Source: Candidatus Lokiarchaeota archaeon (lineage in GTDB: Archaea; Asgardarchaeota; Thorarchaeia; Thorarchaeales; Thorarchaeaceae). Taken from it: 36,190 nt of DNA. A model generated the notes under the pieces. The model was not told the origin of the DNA, made no database searches, and saw only the letters and a list, made by a program, of their open reading frames with translations. The stretch is from positions 1 to 36,190 of the forward strand of contig WJIL01000006.1 of the NCBI GenBank assembly GCA_014730275.1. Direction: 5' to 3'. The number at the start of each line of letters is the position of its first letter. Positions within the stretch are counted from its first letter, which is position 1. A program made the translations under genes and the position numbers. Shown here one piece after another: positions 7,077-26,437 of the stretch.

Positions 7077-9683
7077 ATGCGTCACCGTGCATTTGCACTC
7101 ACATTATTCACAGTTATGTTACTTTCAGGATTCTTGGGCGTAGCTACTCACCAATCATTGCCCCGAGCAGAAACAGGGTCTCAATTGAAGACCAGTTCTG
7201 ATTTACCATCCGGAACGAATCTAAGTAGGGTAGAATGGAGGGCAGATCACAATCCCAACCACGGATTCGAGTATTGGAGAACGGAACATGTTCCAGAGGA
7301 GCTGGACACATACCGAAGCACAGACAGATATCTGTGGTATGCCGAGAATCCTTGGCCAGTAAATGAGGGGTCAAAATCAATGGGTATACAAGCACGAGCA
7401 ATCGATTCCGATCACCCCAGTCAAGCAGAGCTTAAGCAAGGAACCCAAGTTTCTCAGGATAACCCAGTGAATCTCACCCTTGATTTCGACTATTACATAA
7501 ATCAGACTTCAAACCCTGATACCGACTATTTCTATCTTCATTTGGAGTTGAAGCAGTCTGGCACGAAAGAGCTCTACTACTATCTTAGTGGCGTTGATGA
7601 TTCAGTTTCAAACTCATCATATTACAGGTACTTTGTAATGAACCAAACGCAGAATACTTGGTTGAGTTTTGATAGAAACATCACGGAGGATTTCTTTGCA
7701 GCATTTGGAGAATATCCGGAGTCCCAGAATATTATGGAATTCATTCTATTCAGTGAGACTTCATCATATACCCGAGTCTTTGTGGATGACTTGAACTTGG
7801 TCAATGGTACAAATAAAATCGTATCTGGATCGACTAACAATGGAGATTTTGAAGGGGGTGGAGGATGGGTTATCAGCAACAGAGAAGCTGGTGACATTGC
7901 TCGTACCGATATGCACAAGGAAGGCGATTATGCTCTCAATGCTACAGTAGCATCGAGCGGTAACATAAGCCAGGCAAGATTCTCATTCCATACAGACAGA
8001 CGTTTGACTGCTAGTAACCAAGACCAGTTCCGTTTCTGGTGGCGAATCCACGAATACCAGGGTGCATCTAACTATACCTATGCATATATTCATGTCAGTT
8101 GTAGTAATGCAACAGAAGAATTCAGCATTTACTATATGTTTGCTCAGGGGTTGGAATCCCCGGTACATGGATACTCACAGGTAATCCAGATACAACCATC
8201 TGGATTCAATACGACTGATACATGGACATATTTCAATCGGAGTATCTGGGATGATATCACCGCCCATAATCAGACAAGTGAGGTTTTTGTGGAAGAAGTA
8301 GAATTGAGGATGTACACAAGCCACAAGTATTCACGGCTCTCCATGCTATTTGATGATATGGTATTGGAATGCTCGGCACTAAACGACAGGGGCTATGAAG
8401 ATCAACCCGGTGTTGGTGAAGAAATTCGAGCTTGGGGTATTCCTAGCACAGAGTCGTACTTCACAGTTACAAATGATGCGTTGAATGGGGACAAAGCCGC
8501 CAATCTGACGGTTCAAAATGGTGACTCCTACTATGGCGATCAAGAAGGTGCCTACCGCCCTCTCAACAATGAAACAGATACCTATCTTGAAGTGAGCTGG
8601 AAACTTGAAACATTCACATCACAAGTAGACGAGATGGTGCATATCATCATTGAGTTTGCCGACAACAAAGAATACTCATATGTTTTCGCCAATGGCAGCG
8701 ATCCAACTGGAGGAGAGGGTGTAGATGACTACATCATTTTGCCCAATGGAAATACCATAGGTCAATGGTTCACTGTGCAACGGAATATCGCTGAAGATTA
8801 TGAGTTGCTGTTCGGCTCAGCACCCGAAACCGCAATTGACCGAGTAAATCTTGAAGGTTACTCAGAGACAGGAGGCACCGTTGAGATTCTATTTGACGAT
8901 GTTTACTTGTACAATGACGCAGCTCCAGAGATTTCTGAACTCAGCTACACCCCGATATCCCCAGAAGTTGATGAGGCGGTAGAGGTCAACGTGTCGGTCT
9001 ATGATCTTGGTACTGATACTGTGAAACTACATTATAGAGTTGATTCAGGGGGGTGGAGTAGTATCCCCATGACTGACCTTGGTGATAATAGATACACTAC
9101 TTCGATTCCTGGACAAGCCTTCGACGCAGTTATCGAATTCTACGTGTCTGCTAATGATACCTCAGGCAAGTCCACAACTTTGCTCGATGATTCAGATTAC
9201 TTCAGCTATACAGTCACAGATACAATCGCACCAGAAGTAGAAATCGTGTCTCCAGAGCAAGGTGACACCGTTAGTGATTCGGTCCAAATCAACATCACAG
9301 CGAGTGATAGTGGAAGTGGAATCGACCGAGTGGAAATCTACATGGATAACACCAGCTTGACAAACCTCACGAGCGAACCGTTTCTCTACAGCTGGAACAC
9401 AACCACGGTATCAAATGGTGATTACAACCTTACTGTCCGAGCTTATGATGAAGCCGGCAATTGCGCGGATGTACAAATAAGCGTTTCAGTAGAAAATGAA
9501 GCAACTACCACAACTACTACAACTACTACAACTACCACTACTACAACGTCTACAACTGAAACGACAACTACCACCACAACAGTCCCACCACCTGATTTCA
9601 CGGTAGTACCGGCCATAATAGCTGCAATCGTGGCCATCGTTATCATCGTGATTGTCCTATATCAGAGACAACAAAGAAGCTAA
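7077..9683 (+). CDS. Large secreted surface protein: signal peptide, three beta-sandwich-like modules, two Ig-like domains, Thr-rich stalk, C-terminal membrane anchor
   Basis: An 868-residue exported protein of unknown function. A basic N-terminus and hydrophobic segment (to about residue 24) form a signal peptide. Three related modules of about 185 residues follow (about 45-240, 245-430 and 435-613), each rich in aromatic and NxS/T residues and ending in a similar strand: VFVDDLNLVNG, MLFDDMVLE and ILFDDVYLYND. This pattern suggests carbohydrate-binding-module-like jelly rolls. Two Ig-like domains follow (about 616-715 and 717-807; the second has SGSGIDRVEIYMDN and YNLTVRAYDEAGN, typical of bacterial Ig repeats). 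A threonine stalk (810-835), a transmembrane helix (about 843-862) and a basic tail QRQQRS end the protein, so the bulk faces outside. Dense N-glycosylation sequons fit an archaeal cell surface. It has its own terminator-like hairpin and no operon partner. A cell-envelope, adhesion or polysaccharide-binding role is inference. Confidence 0.82.
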   Translation: MRHRAFALTLFTVMLLSGFLGVATHQSLPRAETGSQLKTSSDLPSGTNLSRVEWRADHNPNHGFEYWRTEHVPEELDTYRSTDRYLWYAENPWPVNEGSKSMGIQARAIDSDHPSQAELKQGTQVSQDNPVNLTLDFDYYINQTSNPDTDYFYLHLELKQSGTKELYYYLSGVDDSVSNSSYYRYFVMNQTQNTWLSFDRNITEDFFAAFGEYPESQNIMEFILFSETSSYTRVFVDDLNLVNGTNKIVSGSTNNGDFEGGGGWVISNREAGDIARTDMHKEGDYALNATVASSGNISQARFSFHTDRRLTASNQDQFRFWWRIHEYQGASNYTYAYIHVSCSNATEEFSIYYMFAQGLESPVHGYSQVIQIQPSGFNTTDTWTYFNRSIWDDITAHNQTSEVFVEEVELRMYTSHKYSRLSMLFDDMVLECSALNDRGYEDQPGVGEEIRAWGIPSTESYFTVTNDALNGDKAANLTVQNGDSYYGDQEGAYRPLNNETDTYLEVSWKLETFTSQVDEMVHIIIEFADNKEYSYVFANGSDPTGGEGVDDYIILPNGNTIGQWFTVQRNIAEDYELLFGSAPETAIDRVNLEGYSETGGTVEILFDDVYLYNDAAPEISELSYTPISPEVDEAVEVNVSVYDLGTDTVKLHYRVDSGGWSSIPMTDLGDNRYTTSIPGQAFDAVIEFYVSANDTSGKSTTLLDDSDYFSYTVTDTIAPEVEIVSPEQGDTVSDSVQINITASDSGSGIDRVEIYMDNTSLTNLTSEPFLYSWNTTTVSNGDYNLTVRAYDEAGNCADVQISVSVENEATTTTTTTTTTTTTTTSTTETTTTTTTVPPPDFTVVPAIIAAIVAIVIIVIVLYQRQQRS
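9504..9581 (+). repeat. Threonine-codon triplet repeat (ACT/ACA/ACC) encoding the stalk
   Basis: About 26 codons in a row are nearly all ACT, ACA or ACC, broken only by one serine and one glutamate codon. They encode the O-glycosylation-prone linker of the surface protein. Stretches such as ACAACTACT recur, so the tract could change length by slippage. Confidence 0.85.
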
Positions 9684-11008: not shown

Positions 11009-13618
11009 TTAGGGTAGAAAAGAAATTTCGCGTTCCATCAGTGTGTCCTCAGTATCATCTTCCAAGAAATCCTGAGATGTAGAATAAAAGAGCATCTGAT
11101 GGTAGCCATAATGCTCTGTTTCAGAATCATAGCTATACCAGAGGTCGAACATGTCGTGCCAATGAGGGCTGAAGATGTTTCCACTTTGACCGCCGGGATA
11201 CACATTGTATGATTCAGAAATATCACTCAAATCTGCGACCATGCGCCATGATGGGCCACCTCGAACAACCCATCGTGCATCCCATCCGCGATGTCTGCCA
11301 CCTCCAGCTGCATTGAGCGTATAACCCGATCCTCGGTGGGGACCTCCGCCAAGATATGTCAACCCGACAAGATGGTCTACAACAATGATGTGTTGATGCC
11401 CATATTCCCAGTTGCTTTGGTCGTTCCCCAAATCTTCATTCATATTATCAAGAGCACGATGAAGGGATTGCACAATCATAGTTTTTCGCGTTTCTATATC
11501 CTCAGTTGTGTGGTCATCCAGGTAATATGTCCAGTTTTCCTTGAGAATATGTTCGAGTACAGGATTCCGGGAAAGGCGCAACCGAGAATCTATAGTCCTG
11601 AGCTCATCAAAAACCTCGTAGGACAAGGCCTTCAACAGGTATCGCCATAGCGTCGGTGTCTTTGAATCGGTTTTCATAACGAAATCCCAGTCGCGAAACC
11701 AATCGATTGCTGTATCAATAGTGGTGTTCGATTCTTCAGCAGAGTCCCAGTCATCGATAACAATGGGTACAATCTCTTGGGCCGAAACATCAAGAGAATC
11801 AGCTTGGAATTGCATCATCTTTTCCACAGTAACGTCATCATCAGTACTGAGTAAATCATCAATTCTTCTTCCCCGATAGCCGTCCGCAAACAGACCCTGT
11901 AACGTAAAAGCAGAGTCTTCTGGAGCAATAGAACGCTGATTGCAGGATTGCAAGTACCCTTGCGTAGGATTGACTGATCGAGGATTACATGCGTACGGGA
12001 TATTGCTTACCATCCCGACGGAATCATTGAGAGCTTCTATAGGAAACTCACCAGTATATCCAGCACGTATAGGAAAGCGACCAGCCACTGTCATTGCGAT
12101 GTTTCCTTCGTCATCTGCATAAACGATATTCTGCGGAGGGCTATCCCACCAGTAAACTGCTTCATAGTAATCTGTGATGTTCTTGGCTTGATTTAGAAGC
12201 GACAAGGCGAGAATCTCATGGGTTACACCACTCCCCGTCCAGTTCATTGCCATATTCACGCCATTAGCAGAATAGTTATCGTATCCTCCGATAACAGAGT
12301 CAATACACGGACCATGAATGGATTTCCGGACTTCGAAATCCACCGTACCCTGGTCACTGGTTTCGATAGGTTCATTCAAAATTTCAAAATCTCTCCAATC
12401 ATCGCCATAATAGTACTGTGTCTCGTTGTCAGGATTCAGTCTTTCGACGAATAGATCCAGAACATCAACGCCAACATTGGTGAAGCCCCAAGCAATCTGA
12501 TCCGTATGACCCAGCAGAATTCCCGGTAAACCTGGTAATGTAACTCCTGCGACATCTAATGCCCCAGGAACAACGATATGGGCTTCGTACCAGAGTGACG
12601 GCGCCTGAAGGCCTAGGTGAGGATCGTTAGCAAGAAGTGGTTTTCCAGTTGCTGTTCTGTCTCCATGTACAACCCAGTTATTGCTTCCCACTAACTCTTG
12701 GGGTCCAAGAGCTTCTGCCACGTTTGAAATTGCATCGAGTACCATTTTGAGCTTCTCGACGCCTAGAGTATCTTCATCACAATGTTTCGATTGAATCTGC
12801 TTTGGGGGATTAGTTGTTGCAGGAAAGTCCCCGGGTGCATTCGGAAATTCAGTCAAACTCAAGTTATGCTGTTCAGGAATGATGGGGACGGTATAAGGCA
12901 TAACAGAGGGGTACATATCCTGGCGTAGGCTTTCGTTTTCTATCGTTGCCCATATGAATTGACGCTCAAGATCAGCGAACCCTCCAGACAGACCCCAAGT
13001 CATCATTTTGCTCCAAAGGAAGATGTCATGTGGAGTCCATTTTCGAGCTTGTATGCCTAGCATCTTGAATTCGAGTGGTGTGGTTGCTTGTGTCATGGAT
13101 TCTATGAAAGCATTTACTCCCGCCACTTCAGCATTAACCAAGTCTAAGGCATATGCTATCTCAGGATTACTGTCTTGATGGCTCAGAAACCACTCGTAGG
13201 TTCTTTCAGCAGCCCGTGCAAGGCCAATTGTTCGATAGTATTTGTCGGTTGAAAGAGCAGGAGACCCGACAAGCTCACTAAGCCTGCCCGCTGCCATGTG
13301 ATTCTGTAAAATCATCTGAAAGAGACGTTCTTTGGCATGCAAATATCCAAGCACACGAAATGCATCTTCAACGGTCTCAGCGTAGATGTGAGGGACCCCC
13401 CATGTGTCAATAATGACATCAACTGGAGCATCCAAGATGGACAGAGAGACGGTCATATCTGATTGGGGGTTGGCGACTCTTCCACTATCGAATATCCCAC
13501 CCCATGGTTGGAGTATCCCTAAGCCGCCAGCAAGTGGTCCAATGGGCATAGTTAGTAAGATAATCAAAGCAATTGGTCCCACAAACGATAACCCAAGTTT
13601 CGCAATCTTTTTTCTCAT
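11009..13618 (-). CDS. Penicillin acylase family N-terminal nucleophile hydrolase, exported
   Basis: An 869-residue member of the penicillin G acylase/acyl-homoserine-lactone acylase/cephalosporin acylase family (peptidase family S45). The N-terminal alpha region has GVPHIYAETVEDAFRVLGYLHAKERLFQM, the spacer ends at GPQELVG, and the beta chain would start at the nucleophile serine in GSNNWVV (S312), followed by LLANDPHLGLQAPSLWYE. The C-terminal part has HRGSGYTLNAAGGGRHRG. Family members self-cleave before the serine and hydrolyse amides. A hydrophobic N-terminus (about residues 6-34) directs export or anchors the protein. I place the start at the ATG at 13618: GAGGAGG lies 5 bases upstream, while the frame is open 13 codons further to an ATG without such a site. 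Natural substrate (N-acyl homoserine lactone, N-acyl amino acid, other amide) is unknown. It is first in a minus-strand group with the four-helix protein. Confidence 0.92.
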   Translation of the reverse strand: MRKKIAKLGLSFVGPIALIILLTMPIGPLAGGLGILQPWGGIFDSGRVANPQSDMTVSLSILDAPVDVIIDTWGVPHIYAETVEDAFRVLGYLHAKERLFQMILQNHMAAGRLSELVGSPALSTDKYYRTIGLARAAERTYEWFLSHQDSNPEIAYALDLVNAEVAGVNAFIESMTQATTPLEFKMLGIQARKWTPHDIFLWSKMMTWGLSGGFADLERQFIWATIENESLRQDMYPSVMPYTVPIIPEQHNLSLTEFPNAPGDFPATTNPPKQIQSKHCDEDTLGVEKLKMVLDAISNVAEALGPQELVGSNNWVVHGDRTATGKPLLANDPHLGLQAPSLWYEAHIVVPGALDVAGVTLPGLPGILLGHTDQIAWGFTNVGVDVLDLFVERLNPDNETQYYYGDDWRDFEILNEPIETSDQGTVDFEVRKSIHGPCIDSVIGGYDNYSANGVNMAMNWTGSGVTHEILALSLLNQAKNITDYYEAVYWWDSPPQNIVYADDEGNIAMTVAGRFPIRAGYTGEFPIEALNDSVGMVSNIPYACNPRSVNPTQGYLQSCNQRSIAPEDSAFTLQGLFADGYRGRRIDDLLSTDDDVTVEKMMQFQADSLDVSAQEIVPIVIDDWDSAEESNTTIDTAIDWFRDWDFVMKTDSKTPTLWRYLLKALSYEVFDELRTIDSRLRLSRNPVLEHILKENWTYYLDDHTTEDIETRKTMIVQSLHRALDNMNEDLGNDQSNWEYGHQHIIVVDHLVGLTYLGGGPHRGSGYTLNAAGGGRHRGWDARWVVRGGPSWRMVADLSDISESYNVYPGGQSGNIFSPHWHDMFDLWYSYDSETEHYGYHQMLFYSTSQDFLEDDTEDTLMEREISFLP

Positions 13619-13643
13619 TTGGGCCTCCTCACCTAATACCTTG

Positions 13644-13668
13644 GCATGACGCATCATGCGACTTAAAC
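13644..13668 (-). promoter_or_regulatory. Candidate promoter and operator of the penicillin-acylase gene
   Basis: On the minus strand GTTTAAGT (13668-13661) resembles a TATA box, and just downstream GCATGA-CGCA-TCATGC (13644-13659) is a perfect 6-bp dyad with a 4-base centre. It lies between the TATA-like box and the GAGGAGG site, where archaeal repressors commonly bind. Visible symmetry; regulatory role is inference. Confidence 0.4.
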
Positions 13669-19976: not shown

Positions 19977-20134
19977 TTCGACACTTTGCTCATACTTGCT
20001 CGCTGCTATATGAAGAATCCCCAGATGTATTCGCGAGGTATTTTCAGGCCGAATCTACCTAAAGCGAACGAAATTGTCACCATGATAGATACAATTGCAA
20101 CCACTGGACACCACATCAATGGTATATGGCAATC

Positions 20135-20182
20135 TTAATATATTGATTTATCGCAATTATTCGATGTATTTAGATGTAAATA
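20135..20182 (+). promoter_or_regulatory. Candidate promoter and ArsR operator of the acr3-arsR operon
   Basis: TTAATATATTGA (about 20135-20146) is a good TATA candidate. TATTTA-GATG-TAAATA (20167-20182) is a perfect 6-bp dyad around the expected transcription start and directly before the GAGGGT ribosome binding site. A short direct repeat of GATGTA (20163-20168 and 20173-20178) overlaps it. AT-rich dyads of this kind suit a winged-helix ArsR dimer. Binding is inferred. Confidence 0.4.
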
Positions 20183-20196
20183 ATGAGGGTAGAAAG

Positions 20197-21270
20197 ATGG
20201 AATTAGAATTACCTGCAACCGAAAAGGAACTATCATTATTCGAGAAGTATTTGCCAATTTGGATTGCAATCTGTATGGTCGGCGGGATAGTCATGTCCCA
20301 AGCACTCCCGGGGATAAGTGCTGTTATTGATTCATGGCAAGTCGGAGGAGTTTCAATCCCGATAGGCATTTGTTTGTTCCTCATGATGTATCCAGCAATG
20401 CTCAACTTCCAAGTCTCAGAACTGAAGAAACTGGGAAGGAATCCGCAACCGATACTATTGACGCTCATTTCGAACTGGATTGTAGCGCCCTTGGTGGGAT
20501 ACGGACTGGCAACATTGTTGCTTCCGGGACAGGAGCAATTAATCGTTGCAGTTATTTTGTTAACATCTAGTCCCTGTACAGCAATGGTTCTGGTATGGGG
20601 ATATCTTGCAAATGGGAATCAAGAACAAAATGTAATCACAACCAGCATCAATACGTTTACACTCATTCTTCTTTATGCACCTCTAGTTGCCATTTTCACC
20701 GGACTCTCCAATATCCCAATAGACCGATGGCTGCTGCTGGTCTCTGCGTTTGTATTTATTGGGCTGCCTCTATTGCTTGGAGTTGTGAGCAGGAGAGTTC
20801 TAGTTGATTGGAAGGGGAAAGAATGGTTTGAAAGTACATACCGACCAGCTGTAGGAAACTTAGCCCTAGTTGCCCTCTTGACAACTCTCATAGTATTGTT
20901 TTCGCTCAACGGAAGCATAATGCTGGATCGCCCAGACCTTCTAGTCTTAGTATCTGTTCCACTTATAGCCGGTTTCGCTATCGTTGTAGGATACAACCTT
21001 TTGGTAACGAGGATCGTGGGCCTTGCATATCAGGAGGGGGTTATTAGTGTCATCATCGGATCTTCAAGCCATTTCGAAATAGCGATTGCGACCGCTGTTT
21101 CAATCTATGGCGTTGGTTCTATCGCTGCACTAGGAACTACGATGGGATTGTTCTGGGAAGTGCCCATTATGCTTGGGCTGGTGTATCTGGCCAAGCACTT
21201 GAAAAGCAAAGACTACTGGAAACAACCTTCAGAAACAACAAAAAGGGAAGCTGTCCAGTATACAGAATAG
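20197..21270 (+). CDS. acr3: ACR3-family arsenite efflux permease
   Basis: A 357-residue membrane protein with about ten hydrophobic segments, of the ACR3 family in the BART superfamily, which expels arsenite (sometimes antimonite) using the proton gradient. SSPCTAMVLVWGYLANG contains the essential cysteine of the family (C127 here) and GSSSHFEIAIATA contains the conserved glutamate (E294), where other family members have GASN-FE. I start it at the ATG at 20197, 8 bases after GAGG, just before the usual N-terminal region (LSLFEKYLPIWIAICM); the frame is open another 34 codons upstream through the promoter, which I reject. The arsR gene begins one base after its stop codon, confirming the arsenic link. 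Confidence 0.93.
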   Translation: MELELPATEKELSLFEKYLPIWIAICMVGGIVMSQALPGISAVIDSWQVGGVSIPIGICLFLMMYPAMLNFQVSELKKLGRNPQPILLTLISNWIVAPLVGYGLATLLLPGQEQLIVAVILLTSSPCTAMVLVWGYLANGNQEQNVITTSINTFTLILLYAPLVAIFTGLSNIPIDRWLLLVSAFVFIGLPLLLGVVSRRVLVDWKGKEWFESTYRPAVGNLALVALLTTLIVLFSLNGSIMLDRPDLLVLVSVPLIAGFAIVVGYNLLVTRIVGLAYQEGVISVIIGSSSHFEIAIATAVSIYGVGSIAALGTTMGLFWEVPIMLGLVYLAKHLKSKDYWKQPSETTKREAVQYTE

Positions 21271-21271
21271 A

Positions 21272-21577
21272 GTGCTAACATTGGTATCCGATGACAAGCT
21301 CCTAGATTGGCGGGTGGAATTCCACAAAGCCTTGAGTAACCCAATTAGACTTCGAATTGTTGAGGATTTATTGGAAGGTGAAGAATGTCAGTGTGAAATA
21401 TTTCCTCGGATAGGACTATCTCAGTCAACGGTATCCTCTTATCTCTCTCAATTAGTTGATGCAGGAATACTCGAATCAAGACGTGATGGCAAGAGGAAGC
21501 TATATTCTATTTCGAATGAGGAAATCGCAGGTCTTTTACAAAAAATCAAAGAGACTGTGGAGTCCGTGCGGCAGTGA
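21272..21577 (+). CDS. arsR: ArsR-family arsenite-responsive repressor
   Basis: A 101-residue winged-helix regulator. FHKALSNPIRLRIVEDLLEGEECQCEIFPRIGLSQ includes a C-x-C pair (C39, C41) at the position of the arsenite-binding ELCVCDL motif of classical ArsR. SQSTVSSYLSQLVDAGILESRRDGKRKLYSI is the recognition helix and wing. It should repress the operon and release DNA on binding As(III) or Sb(III). It starts at GTG (21272), one base after the acr3 stop; a TTG three codons later is an alternative. Placing the regulator second means its own level follows operon output. Operator candidate: the dyad at 20167-20182. Confidence 0.9.
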   Translation: MLTLVSDDKLLDWRVEFHKALSNPIRLRIVEDLLEGEECQCEIFPRIGLSQSTVSSYLSQLVDAGILESRRDGKRKLYSISNEEIAGLLQKIKETVESVRQ

Positions 21578-21613: not shown

Positions 21614-23455
21614 CTAGTCATCTTTTCTCAGCCAATAGACAGCAGTTGTAGTTACCACCAAGCCCGAAAGAACACCCACAACCAGAGCTAATTCCTCAAA
21701 TGTTAGACCCAAGAAAGACGGATCAAGAGAATCTCCAGATATCCGTTGAAGGATTCGGAAATAATGGTCATTGGCGTCGAACTCAATCATTTCGCTTGGT
21801 ACGTAGGTTGACACATTGAAGGGACCGGATGTAACCATTTCATTCTCTGAGGGTTTTGGATTCCAAGTATTCCAGCCGTTTAGACCAATCTCGACGAATA
21901 TATGCTTTGGAATTATTGGTTTGTAGCCGATAGAACCTAGATGCCAAATCGACTCAATATTGAACTGGAATCGGACCTTATAGGTGGTCATCTCTACAGC
22001 CTGAGTCATGTTCCAAAAATCTGGCCCGTATGGCCCCCCGGAGGTGTCGCGATAGTAATTGATTGAAAAGGCAATATCTTCAGCCGTGATGGGGCTACCA
22101 TCAGTCCAAGTGAGATTATTATAGAGTTCAAATGTTACCCGCGTGAAACCGTTAGGAACTGCAGGATTGTCGTCATGTGTTTCCATGTTGTATGACTTTG
22201 CCATCCATCCCATTTCTACACCGTTTGGACCCTGTTTCAGCAGGCTATCATACATCACACTGAGCATCGCTTCAACTGGATAATCATCCACCAAGGTCAT
22301 GAAATTGAAACTCGGAATTTCCATGTCATAAGTGGTGCGGAATGTGCCTCCAAACGGGCCGCCATTTGCTAGTTTGGGATGAGACCTGTAGTAGGTCCAC
22401 CAGCTTGGAACACCAGTATGTACATCATTCACAAAACCATCAAAACGATCAGTACGATATGCTGAAATCACTGATTTCTGATAAAGCACAATCTCTGGAC
22501 ATTGATACGTCCATATCTGCTGAAGACATTGTGCTGCTTCGTATACTGCATCATAATCTGGTGTGTGAAGGAGTTTATCAGCCCAGAAATCAAATGTTTC
22601 GTTTTGAAAGTTTGCCAGATTGTATCCACGATAATCCCTAAGTTCTGACCAGAAGTTGTATCCAAGCCAATCAACATACATAGTATTGAACTGTCTTGAG
22701 AGAATAGCCATATCATAATCGCCATGCCAGTATAGACGCTCTAAATAGTCATAATACCAGCCTTGAGTAATCAAGGCATCAATATGGAGAGCTTCAAAAG
22801 CCACTTCAAGTTGATTCTTCACGGGTTCGCTCTTGATGAAATGATCTGAGGACCAAACCACAACATCGAAGTTATCTCCATTGGGAGCTTCTCGGTACCC
22901 ATCGCCGTCAACATCGAGAAAACCAGTTTCATTCAGCAGTTTATTCCCATAATCGATATCAGCATCATAGTAGCTGAAATTCAGTTTTCCCTCAACAGAG
23001 TAGGGATTGGCAGCAGGCACACAGGAATCTAAGGTGTTGGCATATCCACCCCAGATATCCTCAGCTATAGCATTCTTATCTATTGCAAAAGCCAGAGCTC
23101 GTCTGAATCCTGTGTAGTTGAATGGATATTTCTCAGTATTGATGGACAAGCAGACGTAACCATTTTGTGGAGTTGTTGAAACATTGATATTTTCTGTTTC
23201 CTGTAGTTCCGCAACGAGATCAGGGGTTATTCCTTCTCCAATCAAATCAATCTCATCATCCGTAAGTGCTTCCACCTGTCTCGCTTCGCTCGGGATATGA
23301 CGTGCCACTAATTTGTCAATGGATGGACCATTGATTTTCGAATAGGGTTCTGGCTTTGTTGCGGCTACCATTACTGAAGAAACCGTAGGAAGCAGAAAAG
23401 AGAGAAGCAGACATAGAACAAAAACGATTCGTCCATCATACGATGCCCTGCACAA
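21614..23455 (-). CDS. Membrane-anchored family-5 solute-binding protein with the two halves of the fold in swapped order
   Basis: A 613-residue exported protein related to peptide-binding proteins of ABC transporters (SBP_bac_5, OppA/DppA-like). Residues 1-31 are a signal peptide and about 583-607 a C-terminal transmembrane helix, so it is tethered outside the cell. The order is unusual. Residues about 42-350 match the second half of the family: ALTDDEIDLIGEG, then YPFNYTGFRRALAFAIDKNAI (110-130). Residues about 362-567 match the first half: GGTFRTTYD, LTWTDGSPITAEDIAFSINYY (448-468), and the TSGPF...ANDHYF region (542-566). The end of the second block (NDHYFR) would run directly into the start of the first (GPSIDKLVARHIPSE). 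It starts at TTG (23455) with AGGAGGT about 8 bases upstream. No permease or ATPase gene adjoins it. Ligand unknown. Confidence 0.85.
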   Translation of the reverse strand: MCRASYDGRIVFVLCLLLSFLLPTVSSVMVAATKPEPYSKINGPSIDKLVARHIPSEARQVEALTDDEIDLIGEGITPDLVAELQETENINVSTTPQNGYVCLSINTEKYPFNYTGFRRALAFAIDKNAIAEDIWGGYANTLDSCVPAANPYSVEGKLNFSYYDADIDYGNKLLNETGFLDVDGDGYREAPNGDNFDVVVWSSDHFIKSEPVKNQLEVAFEALHIDALITQGWYYDYLERLYWHGDYDMAILSRQFNTMYVDWLGYNFWSELRDYRGYNLANFQNETFDFWADKLLHTPDYDAVYEAAQCLQQIWTYQCPEIVLYQKSVISAYRTDRFDGFVNDVHTGVPSWWTYYRSHPKLANGGPFGGTFRTTYDMEIPSFNFMTLVDDYPVEAMLSVMYDSLLKQGPNGVEMGWMAKSYNMETHDDNPAVPNGFTRVTFELYNNLTWTDGSPITAEDIAFSINYYRDTSGGPYGPDFWNMTQAVEMTTYKVRFQFNIESIWHLGSIGYKPIIPKHIFVEIGLNGWNTWNPKPSENEMVTSGPFNVSTYVPSEMIEFDANDHYFRILQRISGDSLDPSFLGLTFEELALVVGVLSGLVVTTTAVYWLRKDD

Positions 23456-23566: not shown

Positions 23567-24394
23567 TCAGGCATCTTGCTTTCTATCATCAAAATATTCA
23601 ATCTTCGCCAATTTGGTTGTATCATCTCTAGCTCTAATCTGACTCTGGCTCATACTTCGAAGGTCGATGCTCAATTTGTCCGAGTTTCGCGTTAGCCACA
23701 GTTCATAAGCATCACGAGCAAGAATACTAGCCGCAGCCACAGCCATTGTCTCTTCAGCACCATGTTTCTGAACAAGCCTAATCTCACTCAAATCGAAAAC
23801 TTGACTCATCCGCTTTCTTGTTTTGACCCGAGCAAATTCATCTACAACAATCTGAATATCTGAATCAGCAAAATTCTGTTTCACTAGTTCGTAGATTTCA
23901 GAGACAGCCTTTGAATGTGCCCATGCTAGAATATCATTGAGGTTCTTGCTTTCCGCCCTGAAATCAGCAAACATGTTGTTGAATTTGTGAGGTGAGATGA
24001 CCAAAACGTGTTTGGATTCACAGTATCCAACGATATCCTGAGCTTTCTGAGCGATTCTGTGGCGGGGAAGATCTTTACTGTCCATGATTCCAAGCGCTCT
24101 GAGATGCTTGGATTGTTGAGGTGTGAGTGCGACCGCGGCAACAGTAAGAGGGCCCAACCACTCACCTTTTCCTGCCTCATCTGAACCAATGATAATCTCA
24201 TATCCCTCATCTTCGAATTGCATCTTCTGTATCGTTCTGTAAATCAATGCAGCACATTCAGAGGTATTAGACACAACTTTCCCGGTCCTATATCCAACAA
24301 TGATGCCGCCTGAATATGCTAGTCTAAACTCCTCATGCCTGCTCTTAGCATCCAGCTGTGAAACCGGTTCATCTTTCAGAATCAAATCACGCAT
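23567..24394 (-). CDS. rnhC: RNase HII/HIII-type ribonuclease H, HIII-like
   Basis: An endonuclease that cuts RNA in RNA-DNA hybrids. GSDEAGKGEWLGPLTVAAVAL carries D72 and E73; D185 (VVDEFA) and E214 (KHGAEETMAVAAASILAR) complete a DEDE set as in RNase HIII, where RNase HII has DEDD. The region before the catalytic domain (AYSGGIIVGYRTGKVVSN, about 26-43) resembles the small substrate-binding domain of RNase HIII, which RNase HII lacks. Coordinates use the first ATG, giving 275 residues, but that ATG has no ribosome binding site. The frame extends to a CTG at 24439 with AGGAGGT 8 bases upstream, and the added residues (ESSTVIVPPSKIIE) resemble the start of known RNase HIII proteins, so 290 residues is more likely. 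Family call strong; subtype fairly good. Confidence 0.88.
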   Translation of the reverse strand: MRDLILKDEPVSQLDAKSRHEEFRLAYSGGIIVGYRTGKVVSNTSECAALIYRTIQKMQFEDEGYEIIIGSDEAGKGEWLGPLTVAAVALTPQQSKHLRALGIMDSKDLPRHRIAQKAQDIVGYCESKHVLVISPHKFNNMFADFRAESKNLNDILAWAHSKAVSEIYELVKQNFADSDIQIVVDEFARVKTRKRMSQVFDLSEIRLVQKHGAEETMAVAAASILARDAYELWLTRNSDKLSIDLRSMSQSQIRARDDTTKLAKIEYFDDRKQDA

Positions 24395-24699: not shown

Positions 24700-25488
24700 C
24701 TAGAGACTAACTCTTGTAACATCTCCAATAGTGACGGCCTTCTGAATTCCAGATTTGGTTTCAATTACTAATGCACCATCATCCCGGATATCCACGGCTG
24801 TCCCTTCAATCGTATCAGCTCCAGTATCAACTACCACATGATAGCCAAGAATCTTGTTCAGCCATTTCCATTCCTCAATGGTATCATCGTAAGATCCGTT
24901 TTCTTTCACAACTCCGATTCGTTTGTCAATTGCCAGAAGGATTTCCCTCAGTAATTCTTTACGAGAGATTTCATTTCCAGTGACTTCGATGAGACTTGCA
25001 GCAGGATACCTAAACTCAGTTGACAAGCCACTCATGGGATGGTTAAGATTTATGCCAACACCAACCACAACTCCTTCAATTTTGCCACCTTTAGATATGG
25101 CCTCGCAGAGGATTCCACCAACCTTGTTTTCATCAATGATGATATCATTAGGCCATTTTATGCTGGAATCAACTCCCACAACATGTCGAATAGACTCCGT
25201 CACAGCACAAGCCACAAGCATCCCCAGAATGGGTGAAGGTATTCCTTCCAGTGGACTTTCAAGAAAAACCGAAAAATAGAGTCCACCAGGGGGGGAAATC
25301 CAAATTCTGTTCATCCTCCCTCTTCCAGCAAGCTGCTCATCGGCAATTACTAACAGACCATGGTGCTGACCAGCGAGGGCTTCCTTCTTTGCCGTCTCGT
25401 TTGTGGAGTCCAATTTCTTGAAATAGCGAATCCTAGGTTTGAAATATCTAGTTTCCAGATTATCTGCGAAGGATTCGGGCTCGAACAT
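24700..25488 (-). CDS. birA: Biotin--[biotin carboxyl-carrier protein] ligase (catalytic domain only)
   Basis: A 262-residue biotin protein ligase, which makes biotinyl-AMP and transfers biotin to the lysine of carboxylase carrier proteins. Motifs: LDSTNETAKKEA (27-38), the nucleotide loop GRGRMNRIW (55-63), PPGGLYFSVFL, KWPNDIIID (111-119) and GGILCEA, then GVGINLN. The C-terminal SH3-like domain (GTAVDIRDDGALVIETKSG) is present. There is no N-terminal helix-turn-helix, so it is not a BirA-type repressor. The ATG at 25488 has no ribosome binding site, and a short leader is likely. It diverges from the Ntn-hydrolase-like gene. It could serve the propionyl-CoA carboxylase that would feed the methylmalonyl-CoA pathway encoded 7-11 kb away; no carboxylase is in the window. 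Confidence 0.95.
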   Translation of the reverse strand: MFEPESFADNLETRYFKPRIRYFKKLDSTNETAKKEALAGQHHGLLVIADEQLAGRGRMNRIWISPPGGLYFSVFLESPLEGIPSPILGMLVACAVTESIRHVVGVDSSIKWPNDIIIDENKVGGILCEAISKGGKIEGVVVGVGINLNHPMSGLSTEFRYPAASLIEVTGNEISRKELLREILLAIDKRIGVVKENGSYDDTIEEWKWLNKILGYHVVVDTGADTIEGTAVDIRDDGALVIETKSGIQKAVTIGDVTRVSL

Positions 25489-25564
25489 CGTTTTCTTGTC
25501 CTATTGTCTTTTTCTCCAAATAGAATTTTCGCTGGAATTTCGAACAGGTTCTACCGCAAGAACC

Positions 25565-25570
25565 TATATT
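25565..25570 (+). promoter_or_regulatory. TATA-like element for the Ntn-hydrolase-like gene
   Basis: TATATT in the context AACCTATATTTG lies 42 bases before the ATG at 25607. Almost the same string (CCTATATTTT, two bases of C upstream of TATA here) precedes the threonine aldolase gene at 30963, supporting a shared promoter motif. Confidence 0.4.
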
Positions 25571-25606
25571 TGTGGGTACTGGTATTCCTATCTCGTGGGG
25601 TCCCAG

Positions 25607-26437
25607 ATGACGAGTCTAGCAGGCGCTGTTATACTGGCAGACCGGAAGAAAACAGTGCTTTTCAAAAACAGAGACGTACTGAACACAGAACAATGCGACA
25701 CCCTTTTCTATGATGTCGATTGTTTCGGAATTCGAGGGGTCGATAAGGCAACACAGAAGGAATCGGGATTGACTGTCGGTGTGAATCGGCATGGGTTGGC
25801 TGTAGCAAGTACACATGTACACAAAACAGTTGACCCAAACTATGACCTCTTGGCCGAACAGATTGTCATGTTTGCAAAAGACGCGGAAGATGGCTTGAAA
25901 ATGACCAGAAGCTACCTAAAAGGGGGGCGAAAGTATCAGTGGGGTAATTTGATTCTGGCTGATCACGATAGCATCCTTGTCATAGAAATAGCCGGTAGTA
26001 ATCATTCCATTGAACGGTCTGAAAGAAAAGCGCTTCGGACGAGTCATCATGTTATGCTAGATACTGAAGACACACTTAGACAATCTCTTGCCAAGTCTGG
26101 AGAGTACACATACGAAAATTCAGTAAATCGACTCTACAGAGGTTATGAACTCGTGAAAGAAGTATCTAGGGTCGATGGTGTATTTGACATGCTAAAAGAT
26201 CACGGAGACAATCCAAGCAGTGAAAGCATGTGTGTACATGGCGAAAACGGAGAAGTGCCTGAAACAAGAAGAAGCTATGTCATCGAGGTGAATCATGGCA
26301 AGGACGCAAAGCGGCCCAGTGTTCTATTCCACGTAGCAAAGGGCAGGCCATGTGAGAATGAATTCATGGCAATACCATTAGTGTTTCCTGCAGACGAACA
26401 GGTTATGGAACGAGCTCGGTCTATGTATTTCGAGTAA
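25607..26437 (+). CDS. Ntn-hydrolase-like protein (linear amide hydrolase / NRDE-type resemblance)
   Basis: A 276-residue protein. I start it at the ATG at 25607, where MTSLAGAVILADRKKTVLFKNRD begins; the frame is open 56 codons upstream, but that part overlaps the divergent biotin ligase start and reads as non-coding. NRD (21-23), GVNRHGLAVAST (58-69), LILADHDSILVIEIAG and the later RTSHHVML have the order and spacing of the acyl-CoA:6-aminopenicillanate acyltransferase (C45), C69 and NRDE/TANGO2 group, all Ntn-type hydrolases with a nucleophile at the very N-terminus. Here the residue after the initiator Met is Thr, not the usual Cys, so either Thr acts as nucleophile or activity is lost. 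Monocistronic with a GTGGGG site before the start. Fold assignment moderate; function unknown. Confidence 0.6.
   Translation: MTSLAGAVILADRKKTVLFKNRDVLNTEQCDTLFYDVDCFGIRGVDKATQKESGLTVGVNRHGLAVASTHVHKTVDPNYDLLAEQIVMFAKDAEDGLKMTRSYLKGGRKYQWGNLILADHDSILVIEIAGSNHSIERSERKALRTSHHVMLDTEDTLRQSLAKSGEYTYENSVNRLYRGYELVKEVSRVDGVFDMLKDHGDNPSSESMCVHGENGEVPETRRSYVIEVNHGKDAKRPSVLFHVAKGRPCENEFMAIPLVFPADEQVMERARSMYFE

Follow-up and report, generated by a model that had tools for sequence, protein, structure and literature searches.

Sequence and structure models support a circularly permuted family-5 solute-binding protein in a Thorarchaeota genome and a second permuted order of the same fold

A 613-residue protein encoded by a Thorarchaeota genome is best described as a true circular permutant of the OppA/DppA-type family-5 solute-binding fold, a reading supported by profile and chain alignments and by a predicted structure. 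Its gene lies in the window, the whole 36,190-nucleotide stretch of DNA analysed here. Segment models, Pfam and PDB matches agree that its three segments run S1-S2-S3, the order termed type 1 below; the normal family-5 order is S3-S1-S2. Taken as a whole, the explanation that we consider probable is a permuted two-lobed fold of type-1 order that acts as a tethered receptor and feeds a shared Opp-type importer. With less confidence, we incline to a broader picture in which family-5 binding proteins exist in three natural circular orders, each permuted one having viable ends in a different region of the fold and one of them having been reached repeatedly, and in which Thorarchaeota shifted nearly their entire receptor set, moving the membrane tether. 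The gene, its parts and its nearest neighbours are as follows.

21614..23455, minus strand: predicted type-1 circularly permuted family-5 solute-binding protein, 613 aa, TTG start, intact ORF
23357..23455, minus strand: signal-peptide-like N-terminus, residues 1-33; Kyte-Doolittle peak 2.4 (18 aa), model helix 8-33
22868..23332, minus strand: segment S1, residues 42-196, holding FRRALAFAIDKNAI; middle of the normal fold, beginning right after the NPDYW position
22388..22861, minus strand: segment S2, residues 199-356; the normal fold's C-terminal third
22358..22387, minus strand: short linker, residues 357-366, from the old C-terminus to the old mature N-terminus
21755..22357, minus strand: segment S3, residues 367-567, holding WTDGSPITAEDIAFS; the normal fold's N-terminal half, last residues NDHYFR
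21620..21700, minus strand: predicted C-terminal membrane helix, residues 586-612, from model helix and hydrophobicity
21272..21577, plus strand: ArsR-family regulator, a convergent neighbour and not part of the system
23567..24394, minus strand: RNase HII, upstream on the same strand, no functional link seen

Pfam PF00496 (SBP_bac_5) matches the window protein with E=1.3e-46 and 159.9 bits (cut-off 32.4), and in a profile match on the DNA its positions 140-363 come before positions 12-141 along the gene. phmmer against the PDB aligns the protein as two separate stretches, swapped relative to normal-order chains; in 7ebm, query residues 115-354 correspond to chain residues 269-516 and query residues 435-565 to chain residues 63-187. 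The A1 profile, built from 30 relatives, likewise matches normal-order chains in two separated stretches of reversed order. The original prediction had noted a second-half signature (FRRALAFAIDKNAI, residues 117-130) ahead of a first-half signature (WTDGSPITAEDIAFS, residues 450-464). Both are found at these places in the translated ORF, and the swapped profile parts and PDB stretches bear out the reversed order of the halves. The break had been put at the family's NPDYW-equivalent position, which agrees with the family alignment, where NDHYFR of the window protein lines up with NPNYFY or NPNYFH of its relatives. Each half of the fold is present once and swapped, with the old termini joined, and normal-order homologs exist. 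The signal peptide and membrane helix said to bracket the protein correspond to model helices at residues 8-33 and 586-612, with hydrophobic termini in the relatives as well; together, the signal-like helix and the C-terminal hydrophobic helix predict export and membrane tethering. Beyond the membrane helix, the chain continues for only a few residues.

Structure prediction, which had been proposed as a check, returns one confident fold for the whole chain: AlphaFold2, with a 30-row alignment as input, reaches pLDDT 87.4 and pTM 0.81. In a Foldseek search of the PDB, the top of the list consists of family-5 binding proteins, with alignments of about 290-345 columns at TM 0.4-0.54; the aligner is order-bound, and such an aligner is expected to be limited in length and TM when it meets a permuted protein. 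Domain I of OppA is made of three chain segments and includes the two chain ends. It is apparently the middle one of these segments that carries the type-1 cut, which would place the old and the new ends both in this domain.

The permuted order is widely shared. The homolog search and order comparison suggested with the prediction find co-linear relatives of the same order in many Asgard genomes, and named relatives are from Thorarchaeota and other Asgard MAGs. Full-length co-linear relatives with 25-53% identity occur in the Thorarchaeota family of the window genome and in other Asgard families. Of 39 relatives searched, 30 match, and within the same family most matches span almost the full length. 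Most other genomes of this family hold near-full-length co-linear proteins at 40-50% identity to the window protein, and the single-contig genome G021 has one at 39%. A phylum-wide search gives matches in 44 of the 47 genomes of the window genome's family, and full-length co-linear type-1 proteins in Asgard families f9, f18 and f19. Across 117 complete relatives, the S2 and S3 models are separated by a median of 7 residues; a hydrophobic N-terminal end is present in 115 of them, and so is a hydrophobic C-terminal end (115/117). Outside Asgard archaea, no plasmid record matched type 1 with at least 80% query coverage, and the best 80 matches of a genome-wide scan are all from Asgard or archaeal MAGs.

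That an assembly artefact or a decayed gene explains the swapped order is next to impossible. The fragmented source assembly (151 contigs) speaks for such an artefact, but the window ORF is intact and full-length co-linear relatives stand in dozens of independent genomes, the single-contig G021 among them. An assembly error, which the original prediction had named as grounds for rejecting its claim, is ruled out as the cause of the order by these relatives, which keep the permuted arrangement elsewhere. Circular permutation, the first of the two readings offered there, is upheld by the co-linear relatives in many genomes, the confident single-fold model and the normal-order sisters in the tree described below.

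In the source genome (G000), permutation extends to every family-5 receptor detected: 14 binding proteins, 13 of type 1 and one of a second permuted order (type 2). The 29 PF00496 matches resolve into the 13 type-1 genes, one short fragment on contig C61 and the type-2 gene on contig C1; no normal-order family-5 copy was found in this assembly of 151 contigs. One type-1 gene is split across contigs C52 and C96, which share an exact 141-bp overlap. Another, on contig C44 (L058:5104-7040, minus), is present as two overlapping ORFs of 299 and 352 aa and is either a decayed copy or the product of a sequencing error. The type-2 gene (L060; contig C1, 7799-9532, minus) encodes 577 aa and sits inside a complete oppBCDF operon. 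It had been a candidate for the lone normal-order protein of the genome; reading of its sequence showed the second permutation, S2-S3-S1.

The type-2 cut follows AGYxDxDGDGxRE, at about profile position 285, and would sit in domain III. Many proteins of other Asgard families have this order, which is also found on haloarchaeal plasmids (Halorussus, Halomarina, Haladaptatus, Halalkalicoccus) and in alphaproteobacteria (Nitratireductor, Neorhizobium, Maritalea, Roseomonas, Ketogulonicigenium). At the type-2 plasmid loci (L266-L270, L293-L297), permease genes mostly adjoin the binding-protein gene, and M28 peptidase genes stand beside three. PDB matches to type-2 proteins cover the swapped pieces separately. 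AlphaFold2 of the C1 protein, run on a shallow alignment of fragments, gives pLDDT 55 and pTM 0.44, values too low to support a fold. C1 and its orthologs, which are 45-68% identical and mostly of normal order, form a 100/100 clade; normal-order orthologs in related genomes are about 60% identical to C1. At the junction of C1, the mature N-terminus follows immediately on the old C-terminus (ahead of the membrane helix), and no intervening sequence is left. C1 is the clearest case of a recent permutation.

The origin of both orders was addressed with segment models, which classified 227 proteins as 150 type 1, 39 type 2 and 38 normal order, and with a tree of 98 rows in which the three segments were re-ordered into a common frame. 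In this tree, type 1 without L048 forms one clade (85/93), and its sister is a group of normal-order proteins from families f28 and f29 (94/97). The exception, L048 (G031, a 0.9 Mb genome of family f8), has type-1 order, yet it groups with a normal-order protein; it is possibly an independent permutation, its placement being weak, and a single type-1 origin that includes it is not rejected (AU p=0.066). A single type-2 clade is rejected (AU p=4e-49); type 2 arose more than once. The type-1 permutation would thus have arisen in Asgard archaea from a normal-order protein, probably once for the clade of the window protein, and the gene would then have multiplied through duplication in Thorarchaeota.

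The second reading in the original prediction was a larger ancestor with the order first-second-first half that lost its front copy. Such an ancestor is no longer visible, since none of the 227 classified proteins has a doubled segment (N-C-N), although tandem duplication and trimming is possible as a route. Tandem duplication followed by trimming is the standard way in which circular permutants arise, and these genomes often have binding-protein genes in tandem (for example on contig C61 of the source genome). These points speak for an origin in which a tandem copy (N-C-N-C) lost sequence from both ends, by way of a larger first-second-first ancestor, as opposed to direct cutting and joining. 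The 0/227 count tells against this route, as does the recent C1 junction, which lacks any remnant between old C-terminus and mature N-terminus, and we entertain it tentatively. A surviving N-C-N ancestor was sought among the 227 proteins, and none was found.

Genomic context bears on function. The gene was predicted to be an orphan, and it is one: its neighbours are genes for an ArsR regulator, an SBF-family transporter, RNase HII and biotin ligase, and no permease or ATPase gene of the oppBC/oppDF type adjoins it. The SBF-family transporter and ArsR regulator genes lie in tandem (20095-21577, plus strand), convergent with the binding-protein gene, and are possibly an arsenic-response pair. 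Other genes in the window encode a Penicillin-amidase-family protein of 882 aa (11009-13657), an acyl-CoA:6-APA acyltransferase-family protein (25439-26437) and an 868-aa protein (7077-9683), probably a surface protein, that carries a bacterial Ig domain (Big_7) close to the C-terminal end.

The further suggestion that the protein is a receptor and not part of a transporter is only partly borne out. Its own gene is an orphan, but close type-1 relatives adjoin oppB in at least eight genomes, the source genome included, and this indicates that the permuted fold belongs to transport systems. In the source genome, the relative split across C52/C96 comes after a pair of oppB genes and one oppC-like gene, and two oligo_HPY ATPases are encoded close by; oppB also lies beside the type-1 gene at loci L035, L038, L044, L120, L137, L141 and L143, which belong to genomes G019, G010, G014, G219, G004, G006 and FT1_004. 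At L055 and L140, the type-1 domain is fused to Peptidase_S8 (subtilase), with weak matches to Ig/PKD-like repeats. The L055 fusion (source-genome contig C20, L055:4876-12414, minus) is about 2500 aa long and has a C-terminal membrane helix, and genomes G002, G008 and G016 have open frames of more than 2300 aa that contain a type-1 domain. From the relatives beside oppB and the subtilase fusions, the window orphan is read as a tethered receptor for a shared ABC transporter.

Two other roles can be weighed against this evidence. A pure sensor or receptor that binds at the surface for signalling or regulation, and delivers nothing to a transporter, is in keeping with the absence of adjoining transporter genes and with the greater number of orphan paralogs than transporter-linked ones in the source genome. 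This role is unlikely, however, because relatives are located in opp loci and the few residues past the membrane helix leave no cytoplasmic signalling domain. The fusions to Peptidase_S8 and Ig/PKD-like repeats would fit a surface capture or adhesion protein, for instance one that offers substrate to a protease bound to the cell, and that takes no part in import. The window protein itself carries no such domains and transporter-linked relatives exist, which makes this role more improbable still.

As a tethered receptor, the window protein would most likely fold as a usual two-lobed binding protein, with the short linker connecting its former termini and a new opening in the chain directly behind the NPDYW position. 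The signal peptide and membrane helix at the new ends would place it on the outer face of the cell membrane. There it would most likely be one of many alternative receptors that catch small oligomers, most likely peptides, and the captured ligand would be passed to an ABC importer of the Opp type that the receptors share and whose genes lie elsewhere in the genome. We infer ligand capture, hand-over to the shared transporter and the class of ligand from this context. The aspartate that we take to anchor the amino end of the peptide (DppA D436, OppA D445, precursor numbering) has its equivalent in 9 of 150 type-1 proteins; it is replaced in the window protein, and the position is mostly Ser, Asn or Gly in type-1 relatives, which raises the possibility of a ligand other than an ordinary peptide. 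Oligosaccharide binders account for several of the best PDB matches by sequence; together with the non-conserved aspartate, this makes peptides a provisional choice of ligand class.

Few protein folds have been studied as thoroughly as that of solute-binding proteins, and engineered circular permutants of these proteins serve in biosensors. No description of natural family-5 permutants was found in the literature searched, a body that takes in few subscription papers, and none of the solved PDB chains whose alignments to type-1 or type-2 proteins were inspected shows a permuted order. Annotation that is blind to domain order hides permuted binding proteins; the annotated type-2 examples examined are named only 'ABC transporter substrate-binding protein', and the L270 record is unannotated. 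With permutation recurring in nature, variants are already at hand for examining the fold's tolerance of different end points and the effect of tether position on transport. If true, the three circular orders amount to a natural experiment on the docking of receptors to an ABC importer.

The closest known parallels in organization are the Borrelia Opp system (OppA1-5) and the Pseudomonas Dpp system (DppA1-A5), in which, according to the accessible parts of the reports, many receptors serve one transporter (PMC5736914, PMC4206461). The source genome resembles them in having many binding proteins and few transporters. The receptors of these two systems are not described as permuted in those parts, and the transporter of the source genome would be shared by analogy. 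Type-2 permutants (Nitratireductor WP_113156578.1, Halorussus WP_158059621.1, many Asgard proteins and C1) belong to the same fold family and are also permuted; unlike type 1, they have another cut point, the order S2-S3-S1 and more than one origin, and they often lie in operons with permease and ATPase genes. Compared with OppA and DppA, which keep the peptide-anchoring aspartate, type 1 does not conserve it. All three segments of the family-5 proteins (OppA, DppA, AppA, NikA, chitooligosaccharide-binding and TM1223-type) are detectable in the window protein too, but here they follow the order S1-S2-S3, with termini opened after NPDYW and a predicted membrane helix at the new C-terminus.
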